This document shows, in pieces, positions 4,101 through 16,824 of a stretch of DNA of 64,000 nucleotides. Within the stretch, counting starts at the first letter, position 1; every line of letters starts with the position of its first letter. Position numbers and translations under genes: made by a program. The notes beneath the pieces were generated by a model. It was not told the DNA's origin. It worked only from the letters and a program-made list of their open reading frames with translations, and ran no database searches. This stretch comes from a virus, in the IMG/VR virus record IMGVR_UViG_3300046171_000252, positions 1 to 64,000 of that record; one strand, written 5' to 3'.

Positions 4101-5869
4101 CTGGTCCAGTATCAACAGTAGATCGTATTGATTATTCTAATGACACTGCAACAGCAACAGTAAAAGGATCATTAAGTGTTACTAGACGTGGAGTGGCAGG
4201 GACAGGTAATGCTTCCTTTGGTTATTTTGGTTGTTCTTATCCTGCTATATCAACAGTAGATCGTATTGATTATTTGAATGATACTACAACAGCATCACCT
4301 AAAGGACCGTTAACTGTTGCTAGAGCTTCTGGGGGAGCAACAGGTAATGCTAACTTTGGTTATTTTGGTGGTGGCAGTCCTAGTCCTGCAACAGTAGACC
4401 GTATTGATTACTCTAATGATACTGCAACAGCAGTAGCAAAAGGACCATTAAGTGTTGGTAGAAGATTATTAGGAGCAACAGGCAATAGTTCTTTTGGTTA
4501 CTTTGGTGGTGGTGTTCCTAATACAACAATAGTAGATCGTATTGATTATTCTAATGATACGGCAACGGCATCACCAAAAGGAACATTAACTGCTGTTAAA
4601 AGAAGAATAGCAGCAACAGGTAATGCTGACTTTGGATACTTTGGTGGTGGTGGTCCTAGTGCAGTATCAACAGTAGATCGTATTGATTATTCTAATGATA
4701 CTGCGACAGCATCACCAAAAGGACCATTAAGTGCTGCTAAACAATACACGGCAGCAACAGGAAACTCTAACTTTGGTTACTTTGGTGGTGGTGATCCTGG
4801 TCCAATGTCAACAGTAGACCGTATTGATTACTCTAATGATACTGCAACAGCATCAGTCAAAGGACCATTGAGTGCTGCTAGAAAATACTTTGCAGCATCA
4901 AGTGCCAGAGCCAATGGATTTACTGTAGTCGGTCCAGCACTGGTTTCTAATGCTGCTGCAATGGCAGTGCCTAATGCAAGATCATTTGGTTACTTTGGTG
5001 GTGGTCTTCCCAGTCAACCTACATCAAAAGTAGAACGTATTGATTATTCTAATGATACTGCAACAGCATCAGTCAAAGGACCATTAACTGATGTTGGGTA
5101 TGGTTTAGCAGCAACAGGTAATAGTTTCTTCGGTTACTTTGCTGGTGGTCAAGCTCCTTCTCCTGGTCCAACATCAAAAGTAGACCGTCTTGATTATTCT
5201 AATGACACTGCAACAGCAGTAGCAAAAGGACCATTAAGTGCAGTTGTATATAAAAATCGTGCAACTGGTAATAGTTCTTTTGGATATAATGGTGGTGGCA
5301 GAAACCCTTCTTCTGTACTATCAACAGTAGACCGTATTGATTATTCTAATGATACTGCAACAGCAGCAGTCAAAGGACCATTAAGTGTTGCTAGATATAG
5401 TCACGCAGCAACAGGTAATAGTTCTTTTGGATATTTTGCTGCTGGTCGTACTCCTACTACAAAATCAACAGTAGATCGTATTGATTACTCTAATGATACT
5501 GGAACAACACCATCAAAAGGACCATTAAGTGTTGCTAGATTTAATTTAGCAGCAACCGGCAATGCTGACTTTGGATACTTTGGTGGTGGCAGTAATCCCG
5601 AGTATTCAACAGTAGACCGCATTGATTATTCTAATGACACGGCAACGGCAGCAGTCAAAGGACCATTGAGTGCCGCTAAAACTTACTTTTCAGCAACAGG
5701 CAATGCTTCCTTTGGATACTTTGGTGGTGGTACTCCTGGTTCAGTATCAACAGTACAACGTATTGATTACTCTAATGATACTGCAACGGCATCAGTAAGA
5801 GGACCATTAAGTTCTGTTACACAAAGACAAGCAGGAGTGTCAGCAGCAGCAAATGGACTTCCACAATAG
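1163..5869 (+). CDS. giant kelch-like repeat fibre A (5 x 6 repeats)
   Basis: This 1568-residue protein is predicted to be a tail fibre or adhesin. After a short N-terminal anchor (RGIFRLKQVYE...W..PSPF) it is almost entirely a ~52-residue repeat with consensus FGYFGGG...STVDRIDYSNDTATA..KGPLS..R...AATGN. I count thirty repeats in five groups of six. The groups are separated by non-repeat linkers containing SS(R/Q)AN(A/G)I, EVPVLMGAF, NIVNYAIGTL or VVGPALVSNAA, and the protein ends AAANGLPQ. Six repeats per group suggests five six-bladed beta-propellers. The 7336 gene has the same architecture with matching linkers. The gene overlaps the upstream oxygenase-like gene by 8 bases. The receptor-binding role is inferred; repeat count and grouping are read directly. 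Confidence 0.8.
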   Translation: MPRGIFRLKQVYEEQLSGNWSEKKDVWNTPSPFNATHPFGYFGGGRAPSVVSTVDRIDYSNDTATASLKGPLSAAISITGATGNANFGYHGGGYPGPVVSTVDRIDYTNDTATASTKGPLSVARYAPAATGNTSFGYFGGGYAGGGVSTVDRVDYSNDTGTAPAKGPLSVIRHYHGATGNADFGYFGGGSGPKSSVDRIDYSNDTATASPKGPLSLARGGPAATGNSSFGYFGGGYPGPRSTVDRIDYSNDTATAVAKGPLSSARYSQGATGSASFGYFGGGEPGPAVSNVDRIDYSNDTATASPKGPLNVARFMAAATSSQANGITDETLFPAPTVRENVAPQGTDFGYFGGGRTPGTVSTVNRIDYSNDTATASTKGPLSSARYGLAATGNAPFGYFAAGNPSSAVSTVDRIDYSNDTATASVKGPLSAVSPGSAASLGNSNFGYFAAPSATSTVERIDYSDDTATALVRGPLSVSKYSRAGTGNANFGYVGGGGPATSIVDRIDYSNDTATASPKGPLSLARISLAATGNASFGYFGGAFPGPHSTVDRIDYSNDTATASPKGPLSSARGQFAATGNADFGYFGAGYDDNPNRVSTVDRVDYSNDTATAVAKGPLSQVVMNHGACSSRANAIPLKGTGNLEVPVLMGAFNVITPQGTDFGYFGGGLAPSSSSSVDRIDYSNDTATAAEKGPFSVTRYGAAATGNQSFGYFAGGHGPLSSVDRINYSNDTATALERGPLTAGKRYYGATGNSSFGYFGGGSGSGGVISSVDRIDYSNDTATAVAKGPLSAAKYVTGATGNANFGYIGGGFDNPNLYSTVERIDYSNDTATASPKGPLSVARRRLAATGNADFGYFGGGNDPEQSTVDRVDYSNDTATAPAKGPLSLARAYLAATGNASFGYFGGGESAPGPGARSTVDRVDYSSDTATAAAKGPLSVTRRYFRATSSRDNAIPTQNIVNYAIGTLATPNTGYFAGGMAGPVSTVDRIDYSNDTATATVKGSLSVTRRGVAGTGNASFGYFGCSYPAISTVDRIDYLNDTTTASPKGPLTVARASGGATGNANFGYFGGGSPSPATVDRIDYSNDTATAVAKGPLSVGRRLLGATGNSSFGYFGGGVPNTTIVDRIDYSNDTATASPKGTLTAVKRRIAATGNADFGYFGGGGPSAVSTVDRIDYSNDTATASPKGPLSAAKQYTAATGNSNFGYFGGGDPGPMSTVDRIDYSNDTATASVKGPLSAARKYFAASSARANGFTVVGPALVSNAAAMAVPNARSFGYFGGGLPSQPTSKVERIDYSNDTATASVKGPLTDVGYGLAATGNSFFGYFAGGQAPSPGPTSKVDRLDYSNDTATAVAKGPLSAVVYKNRATGNSSFGYNGGGRNPSSVLSTVDRIDYSNDTATAAVKGPLSVARYSHAATGNSSFGYFAAGRTPTTKSTVDRIDYSNDTGTTPSKGPLSVARFNLAATGNADFGYFGGGSNPEYSTVDRIDYSNDTATAAVKGPLSAAKTYFSATGNASFGYFGGGTPGSVSTVQRIDYSNDTATASVRGPLSSVTQRQAGVSAAANGLPQ

Positions 5870-16306: not shown

Positions 16307-16335
16307 TTGACTATATATTAAAGAGGGTCTATAAT
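16307..16335 (+). promoter_or_regulatory. near-consensus sigma70 promoter for the riboswitch transcript
   Basis: TTGACT (16307-16312), a 17-base spacer and TATAAT (16330-16335). The expected start near 16342 falls just before the first aptamer strand. Confidence 0.85.
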
Positions 16336-16344
16336 AAGACCTGA

Positions 16345-16402
16345 CGTTCATCCCGCTCTAGGGTGGGACGCAAGTAAGTCGCGGAACGGAGCCGTTCATC
16401 CC
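16345..16402 (+). promoter_or_regulatory. glutamine-II (Downstream-peptide) riboswitch
   Basis: The sequence fits the Downstream-peptide/glutamine-II class, known from cyanobacteria and their phages. P1 pairs CGTTC (16345-16349) with GAACG (16384-16388), an inner CCC/GGG hairpin follows, and the conserved GGGACGCAAGTAA lies at its 3' side. A competing hairpin is visible: the same GAACG can instead pair with a downstream CGTTC (16393-16397) around GAGC. That encloses the GGAG Shine-Dalgarno-like sequence just before the ATG at 16403. The two folds are mutually exclusive, which gives a simple translation switch sensing glutamine, i.e. nitrogen status. Class assignment is from memory; the alternative pairing is read directly. 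Confidence 0.8.
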
Positions 16403-16575
16403 ATGATTGAATTTCTTTTATACTCATCACTCAGTTGTTCCGATGCCGATGCAATTATGTTTCGGATGAGGAATCACAAGGATCTTGACAATCAAGTTAA
16501 GGTTGAACTAATAGAAGCCGTAAAGGAATCTACACCTGAGTGCTATCCATGGGACGCAAACGACTAAAGGAACGG
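16393..16575 (+). promoter_or_regulatory. second, split glutamine-II-like aptamer enclosing the 54-codon ORF
   Basis: CGTTCATCCC recurs at 16393-16402, immediately before the small ORF's ATG. The matching 3' half, GGGACGCAA + 9 bases + GGAACG, recurs across the ORF's end (16551-16575), with the same 9-base gap as in the first aptamer (GGGACGCAA + 9 + GGAACG). The two halves of a second aptamer thus bracket the whole ORF. Whether they fold across about 150 bases is unknown. Confidence 0.5.
16403..16567 (+). CDS. 54-residue riboswitch-controlled small protein
   Basis: The protein runs from MIEFLLYSSLSCSDADAI to PWDAND and has no membrane helix. It begins right after the glutamine-II riboswitch and is the kind of short ORF for which the Downstream-peptide motif was named. 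I recall similar short proteins (hydrophobic start, SC.DA motif, charged helix) in cyanophages, with no function assigned. Its last codons overlap the 3' half of the second aptamer copy, so its C-terminal sequence may be constrained by RNA structure. Confidence 0.75.
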   Translation: MIEFLLYSSLSCSDADAIMFRMRNHKDLDNQVKVELIEAVKESTPECYPWDAND

Positions 16576-16608
16576 ACCTAAAAATCCAACTACTTTAGGA
16601 GTAAACAA

Positions 16609-16776
16609 ATGAACACACTTCAAATGATTAAGAAGCAGATCAACAAAGCATCTGCACTGCATGACGCACAAGTTCTTCACACCTCATATCGTGGTGTTGA
16701 GTATGATACTCGTTGTGTAGAATCAAAAGAAATGCACGGTACATTCTGTTATCGTGGTCATATCTACAACAAGTGA
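16609..16776 (+). CDS. DUF4278-family small protein
   Basis: 55 residues from an ATG behind TTAGGAG. It has two YRG motifs (SYRGVEYDT and CYRGHIYN), the signature of DUF4278, a small-protein family of cyanobacteria and cyanophages with no known function. It lies in the same transcript as the riboswitch peptide and is followed by an intrinsic terminator. Confidence 0.75.
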   Translation: MNTLQMIKKQINKASALHDAQVLHTSYRGVEYDTRCVESKEMHGTFCYRGHIYNK

Positions 16777-16798
16777 GTCACTTACGTTAAAATTGTTA

Positions 16799-16824
16799 GG
16801 GGGGTTGACTAACCCCCCTTTTTT
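16799..16824 (+). terminator. intrinsic terminator
   Basis: GGGGGGTT (16799-16806) pairs with AACCCCCC (16811-16818) around GACT and is followed by six T. It ends the riboswitch/DUF4278 transcript. Confidence 0.9.

Follow-up and report, generated by a model that had tools for sequence, protein, structure and literature searches.

Glutamine-I riboswitches (glnA motif, RF01739) fold into a P1/P2/P3 three-way junction with a loop E, which in the crystallised RNA, CGUUGACCCAGGAAACUGGGCGGAAGUAA-P3-UGAAGCAACGCG, is formed by GAAGUAA and UGAAGC (PMC5393176). Their glutamine pocket consists of the C1:G59 pair, G22 on G2:C58 and a long-range pair 23:60 (PMC6698751, PMC11477058), and a C:G long-range pair is the orientation of the class II glutamine riboswitch (PMC6698751). 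In cyanobacteria, glutamine riboswitches are ON switches that control DUF4278 genes (PMC6316151, PMC6698751), glnA-type RNAs are already known in cyanophages (PMC9964418), and doublets of glutamine riboswitches have been described as tandem (PMC9481103).

Here we describe a leader RNA in a 64,000-nucleotide stretch of DNA (the window) from a viral record of 207,616 bases. The leader of its DUF4278-like gene is probably an interlocked (strand-swapped) double glutamine-I-type aptamer whose second P2 arm carries a 54-codon gene in its loop. It resembles glutamine-I (RF01739) in its P1/P2/P3 junction, loop E (AAGUAA/UGAAG), G22 and 23:60 pair and in its site before DUF4278-type genes, but differs in that two junctions share P3 with their strands exchanged, 23:60 is C:G instead of G:C, an ORF fills a P2 arm, and there is no loop E at the inner junction, which is circularly permuted. 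With glutamine-II (Downstream-peptide motif, RF01704) it shares the C:G long-range pair, the GCGCA and GGAACGG segments and small downstream proteins with DUF4278; unlike that class, it has a loop-E three-way junction in place of the H-type pseudoknot and the stem enclosing GGAACG. Like the tandem doublets (PMC9481103), it carries two aptamer-sequence repeats before one gene, but the cyanophage repeats are interlocked and not independent.

Repeated halves and their setting

Within the window, the 5′ half CGTTCATCCC has exactly two exact copies (16345 and 16393), GGGACGCAA has two (16365 and 16551), and GACGCAA-N-GGAACG occurs twice with identical 9-base spacing (16367 and 16553) and nowhere on the other strand of the window; the chance expectation for an exact GGGACGCAA-N9-GGAACG within 200 bases 3′ of the 5′ half is approximately 7e-8. 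The original prediction had read positions 16393-16575 as a second aptamer copy split open by the small ORF, with one half directly before the ATG, the other at the stop and the internal spacing of the first copy. This description was accurate: the ATG at 16403 directly follows 16402, the TAA at 16565-16567 lies inside the 3′ half, and the 9-base spacing is common to both copies. Lack of the 3′ half in relatives had been named as a finding that would speak against it; we found this half kept nearly letter for letter, with its spacing, in 79 of the first 80 related viral loci (found via the ORF protein), and in the remaining one, L045, the contig ends. The halves flanking the ORF (16393-16402 and 16551-16575) were found again in approximately 350 cyanophage loci, the inner CGC(A) motif being present in 350 of 351 distinct loci. 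The relatives at this locus are T4-like cyanophages, with nucleotide matches to 449 phage records.

The transcription unit runs from a promoter through repeat 1, the 54-codon ORF framed by repeat 2 and the DUF4278-like gene to a terminator (Table 1). The promoter spacing predicts a transcript that begins near 16342, immediately 5′ of the aptamer and at the beginning of repeat 1, and a -10 box lies just 5′ of the aptamer in approximately 200 of 250 assessable loci.

Table 1. Coordinates of the leader, its genes and its signals in the window
Feature	Position	Strand	Remarks
Sigma70-type promoter, TTGACT-N17-TATAAT	16307-16335	+	11/12 consensus positions
a1 CGTTC, outer P1 5′ strand	16345-16349	+	pairs with 16570-16574; CGTTC/GAACG to CGTTT/AAACG; paired in 257/258
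P2_1 hairpin TCCC...GGGA	16351-16368	+	compensatory changes; small ORF in arm in many relatives
G22, C23 (16371), loop-E 5′ strand AAGTAA	16370-16377	+	match to glutamine-I E-loop GAAGUAA/UGAAGC (PMC5393176)
P3 5′ strand GTCG	16378-16381	+	pairs with 16561-16564; 174/174 paired, main type
Inner P1 hairpin GAACG-GAGC-CGTTC (a1′ 16384-16388, inner G60′ 16389, a2 16393-16397)	16384-16397	+	258/258 paired; GAACG/CGTTC to CAACG/CGTTG two-sided in 77
P2_2 5′ strand TCCC	16399-16402	+	pairs with 16551-16554 across the ORF
54-codon ORF	16403-16567	+	phrog_504, E 5.7e-28; fills P2_2 loop, stop in loop E
3′ half: P2_2 GGGA 16551-16554, C21′-G22′-C23′ 16555-16557, P3 CGAC 16561-16564	16551-16564	+	
Loop-E 3′ strand TAAAG 16565-16569; a2′ GAACG 16570-16574; G60 16575	16565-16575	+	TAAAG is also ORF stop and anti-SD strand; a2′ is the outer P1 3′ strand
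CTTTAGGAG, anti-SD target and Shine-Dalgarno (SD) of DUF4278-like gene	16593-16601	+	234 loci
DUF4278-like gene	16609-16776	+	phrog_545, E 3.6e-35
Intrinsic terminator, end of transcription unit	16798-16824	+	9-bp stem and T tract

A host origin of the interlocked form was considered and rejected: across 300 picocyanobacterial genomes, one match reads as the element and two other pattern matches are chance-like, and the sole match lies on a 189,106-base contig equal in size to a record filed as viral. RF01739 itself has matches in 41 of 121 picocyanobacterial genomes. Phage S-8S53 (L097:476-770) seemingly carries one half only (promoter, CGTTCATCCAATG, ORF, GGGACGCAAACGACTGAAGGAACG) and no copy 1; its record has a run of N in the same interval.

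Strand exchange between the repeats

The 5′ P1 strand of copy 1 pairs with the 3′ strand of copy 2, and the 3′ strand of copy 1 with the 5′ strand of copy 2. This yields an outer three-way junction (P1 16345-49/16570-74, P2_1, P3 16378-81/16561-64 and loop E 16372-77/16565-69) and an inner junction composed of a closed P1 hairpin (16384-88/16393-97), P2_2 (16399-402/16551-54) and the opposite end of P3; all sequence between the P3 strands lies inside P3. AAGUAA of loop E is found in repeat 1 only and UAAAG/UGAAG in repeat 2 only, so that only the 5′ part of repeat 1 together with the 3′ part of repeat 2 makes up a complete aptamer; joining the repeats gives P3 (GUCG with CGAC). Of the predicted second fold, the riboswitch-like character and the placement of the ORF in a loop, that of P2_2, were retained; its self-containment was not, because both P1 strands of copy 2 find their partners in copy 1 and not in one another, and loop E and P3 also take one strand per copy. 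Judged from the sequence, the element is a single interlocked double aptamer spanning 16345-16575, rather than a second copy at 16393-16575.

The two folds were compared in 258 distinct parsed loci, of which 257 have the interlocked P1 pairs and 180 the tandem ones. The tandem pairs are broken in 78 loci, of which 77 retain the interlocked pairs, a count inflated by one scan that chose CAACG/CGTTG loci; none of the 258 is tandem-only, and one ambiguous locus fits neither fold. The fair count comes from the 141 loci without scan selection, with interlocked pairs in 140, tandem pairs in 132 and all 8 discordant loci interlocked. Because the parser fixes four of the five P1 pairs, P1 covariation refers to the fifth pair only, one per helix: two-sided changes occur in 77 loci at the inner P1 (G-C to C-G) and in 8 at the outer P1 (C-G to U-A). 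On the ORF tree the inner pair was altered at least 18 times, and all of the supported independent contrasts (7/7, p 0.016) were concerted in this sample, which the scan selection also affects. RNAalifold recovered the same outer and inner P1 unaided from 20 ORF-free sequences, with two-sided changes in 9 of 22 pairs, and in ACG-2014f the RF01739 model follows the outer aptamer along its interlocked strands with a score of 41.1 bits (cut-off 35), placing a 41-nt insert in P3. Compensatory changes between the two halves, the check originally proposed, are seen in P2_2, whose pairs are held in 217-219 of the 220 ORF-bearing loci (shuffle maximum 190) and whose pair 4 has changed on both sides in 43. 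From these sequence comparisons we regard the interlocked architecture as well supported. P3 is only 4 bp long; its variants GUCA/UGAC and GUUG/CAAC keep pairing, and mismatches occur in the GCCGAC type. This type (L095, L099, L335-L365) reads GCCGAC[U/A]CG / [A/U]GnnGAC; its far end covaries from U-A to A-U, and its internal loop contains C-A oppositions.

An arrangement of two independent glutamine aptamers in tandem, a pseudo-cooperative doublet with the second member interrupted by the ORF, fits the repeats by eye and the cataloguing of glutamine riboswitches as tandem doublets (n=157; PMC9481103), and the 180 loci that pair either way do not discriminate. In such a doublet every copy closes its own P1, whereas here that helix is broken in the 78 loci above, with no reverse case to the 77 that keep the interlocked pairs; moreover, P3 and a full loop E are present in neither copy alone, and RF01739 itself takes the interlocked path in ACG-2014f. 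Covariation thus led us to reject the tandem reading of the repeats, and we consider a doublet very unlikely here. Still less credible is an ordinary small gene whose flanking repeats are a transcriptional or protein-binding signal and whose last codons are conserved for the peptide. The ORF does have its own family, phrog_504, and is under purifying selection (dN/dS approximately 0.26), but its third-position entropy falls from 1.2 bits in the body to approximately 0.1 bit in the last codons, a freezing that indicates that the RNA dictates the sequence there. Furthermore, in S-CAM1 the ORF ends earlier and the 3′ half is still kept, the covarying pairs span the ORF, and the same RNA occurs in ORF-free relatives (ACG-2014f and S-PM2), where the P2_2 site is an ordinary hairpin (ATCCAGGAAACTGGAC and ATTCGCTATTCGCAAATAGCGAAC, respectively).

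The small ORF in the P2_2 arm

Its selection and family membership mark the 54-codon ORF as a real gene. The predicted peptide has two main helices (pLDDT 80) and conserved cysteines at residues 12 and 47. The ORF starts 4-6 bases beyond the P1 strand, and in 210 of 220 ORF loci its stop codon coincides exactly with the loop-E UGA/UAA. Many phages (L478, L480, L484 and others) carry a second small ORF family in the P2_1 arm, which is related to the P2_2 family by profile comparison (96.8%); in syn9 the ORFs of the two arms appear to be gp196 (L578:2443-2643) and gp197. Among 215 loci, ORFs occupy P2_2 only in 142, both arms in 58, P2_1 only in 8 and neither in 7, proportions that are biased by scan choice. 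Group I introns with homing endonuclease genes likewise carry ORFs in peripheral loops of structured RNAs. The cyanophage element shares with them a gene inside the loop of a functional RNA fold but is no ribozyme or mobile intron, and its ORF begins and ends right beside the ligand-binding core.

The ORF start abuts the P2_2 5′ strand and its stop lies within loop E, and a ribosome reading or ending on the ORF would have to open P2_2, P3 and loop E. With the ORF bounds so placed, the aptamer should not be able to fold while ribosomes pass, nor ribosomes to pass while it is folded; a ribosome that terminates at 16565-67 would, in addition, expose the downstream SD. Two candidate controls of ORF initiation were rejected: the GGAG of the inner hairpin loop as SD of the ORF, of which only the first G is conserved (loops GTTC and GAT occur), and a start codon sequestered by an extension of P2_2 (TCCCATG/CATGGGA), which is possible in the window; across 197 loci, conserved pairing of the AUG itself was not found, its U and G being paired in 88 each.

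Glutamine pocket, second site and expression platform

In Rfam searches, repeat 1 scores 22.4 bits with each of the two glutamine classes, below both thresholds. For RF01739 the gathering score is 35, which the ORF-free homologue in ACG-2014f exceeds and the window copy misses, its insert of approximately 180 nt being presumably too long for the model to bridge; the window element is therefore a variant of the glutamine-I riboswitch and not a plain member. It has the three-way junction of that family, with covariation in outer P1, P2_1 and P3, and a loop E obtained solely by combining strands of copies 1 and 2. The H-type pseudoknot of RF01704 with its stem around GGAACG was not found in the window copy (cut-off 33; several stem pairs are broken), and glutamine-II was rejected, as covariation and alignment-based folding favour the three-way junction.

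At the outer junction the pocket letters C1:G59, G2:C58, G22 and 23:60, the last as C:G, are all kept. C23 (16371) has its expected partner in G60 (16575); G60 is found in 348 of 351 loci, and C23 belongs to the search seed. From the identity of the pocket and loop E, this RNA switch probably senses glutamine. The same pocket letters are kept at the inner junction, which has no loop E. This pattern in the sequence argues for a second site: C21′-G22′-C23′ is retained in 350 of 351 loci, and the inner G60′ is G in all 240 loci in which the search left this position free.

Aptamer-like sequences of another arrangement were seen in marine gammaproteobacterial genomes, where an apparent circularly permuted glutamine-I aptamer, TGAGACGCAAGTAA-GC-GGAA-GC-TGAAG-AAACG-GAGT-CGTTT-A-TCTCA, has P2 open, P1 closed and loop E and C23/G60 kept (L406:4930-4970 and 5034-5074, L407:3602-3640, L418, L427 and L410). 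It precedes a glutamine-synthetase-like gene in L406, L407 and L418 and had no Rfam match at gathering score.

A DUF4278-like (YRG) protein is encoded downstream in 244 of 248 assessable loci, at a median of 34 bases after P1; the match of the window gene to PF14105 is weak (19.9 bits, cut-off 25.3). The predicted link of the structure to this gene gained support, as the loop-E 3′ strand, which also carries the ORF stop, is complementary to bases overlapping the SD of the gene. In the 234 loci, the variable pair of this anti-SD helix is A-U in 89, G-U in 86, G-C in 59 and A-C in none; mapped on the tree, its changes either follow the prediction or are neutral, though a sign test confined to supported branches reaches only marginal significance (median p 0.06). 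An anti-SD context is found at 1 of the 12 SDs in the window. When the window leader is folded without constraint, the anti-SD strand and the SD region pair with a probability of 0.99. With ViennaRNA, which models neither loop E nor ligand, SD accessibility is almost unchanged between aptamer-constrained and unconstrained folding (0.40 versus 0.37), and in ORF loci the free ensemble is favoured over the aptamer state by a median of 8.5 kcal/mol. Between P1 and the SD, several phages (S-SM1, Syn19, Sf-FR1, S-T4 and S-PRM1; L083, L084, L085, L087, L098) have a conserved hairpin, AAACGGATCC-stem-GAAA-stem-AGAAGGTTAA or similar, with no match in Rfam. In P-TIM40 (L086:1178-1372), a manA RNA (141.7 bits) lies directly 3′ of the DUF4278 gene.

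Glutamine binding would stabilise P1, P3 and loop E and would then hold the loop-E 3′ strand CUAAAG (16564-69) off CUUUAGGAG (16593-601), so that the DUF4278-like gene is translated; in the ligand-free RNA the CUAAAG strand could cover the SD. As loop E and the SD compete for one strand, ligand binding should free the SD, and our best reading is a translational ON switch for the DUF4278-like gene, coupled to translation of the ORFs in the P2 arms. The reverse, an OFF switch in which glutamine represses the downstream gene, or an attenuator with the ORF as leader peptide, would be in keeping with folding that gives no clear SD difference and with an overlap of ORF stop and anti-SD strand of the kind seen in translational coupling; it is unlikely, given that the SD-covering strand is also needed for loop E, so that binding should free the SD, and that the cyanobacterial relatives are ON switches (PMC6316151, PMC6698751). 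As to the number of sites, glutamine may be bound by the outer junction only, the inner hairpin and P2_2 being a structural spacer and landing site for ORFs. Such a division, which we find plausible if short of probable, agrees with the confinement of loop E to the outer junction and with the handling of the inside as a P3 insert by RF01739, but leaves the invariance of G60′ in a short, otherwise variable hairpin loop and the retention of C21′-G22′-C23′ unaccounted for. Tentatively, as something possible rather than probable, we propose a two-site cooperative glutamine sensor of interlocked aptamers whose P2 loops are gene slots, one leader reading both glutamine and ribosome traffic and choosing between peptides and the DUF4278-like protein.

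Our search of the open-access literature, a scope that leaves absence unproven, turned up no account of the interlocked fold, of the loop-E/SD switch or of an aptamer that encloses an ORF, and none of any riboswitch aptamer with a complete protein gene in a core-adjacent arm or of two aptamers swapping strands around a shared helix. Our results suggest that, in phages at least, what has been counted as a 'tandem' glutamine riboswitch is a single interlocked unit. With a whole small gene built into the loop of the switch, reading of the gene and folding of the switch should interfere, and competition between translation and RNA folding becomes directly testable in a cyanophage leader. An abundant group of marine phages thereby gains a probable nitrogen-sensing circuit aimed at DUF4278 proteins, which are relatives of part of a host glutamine synthetase inactivating factor.
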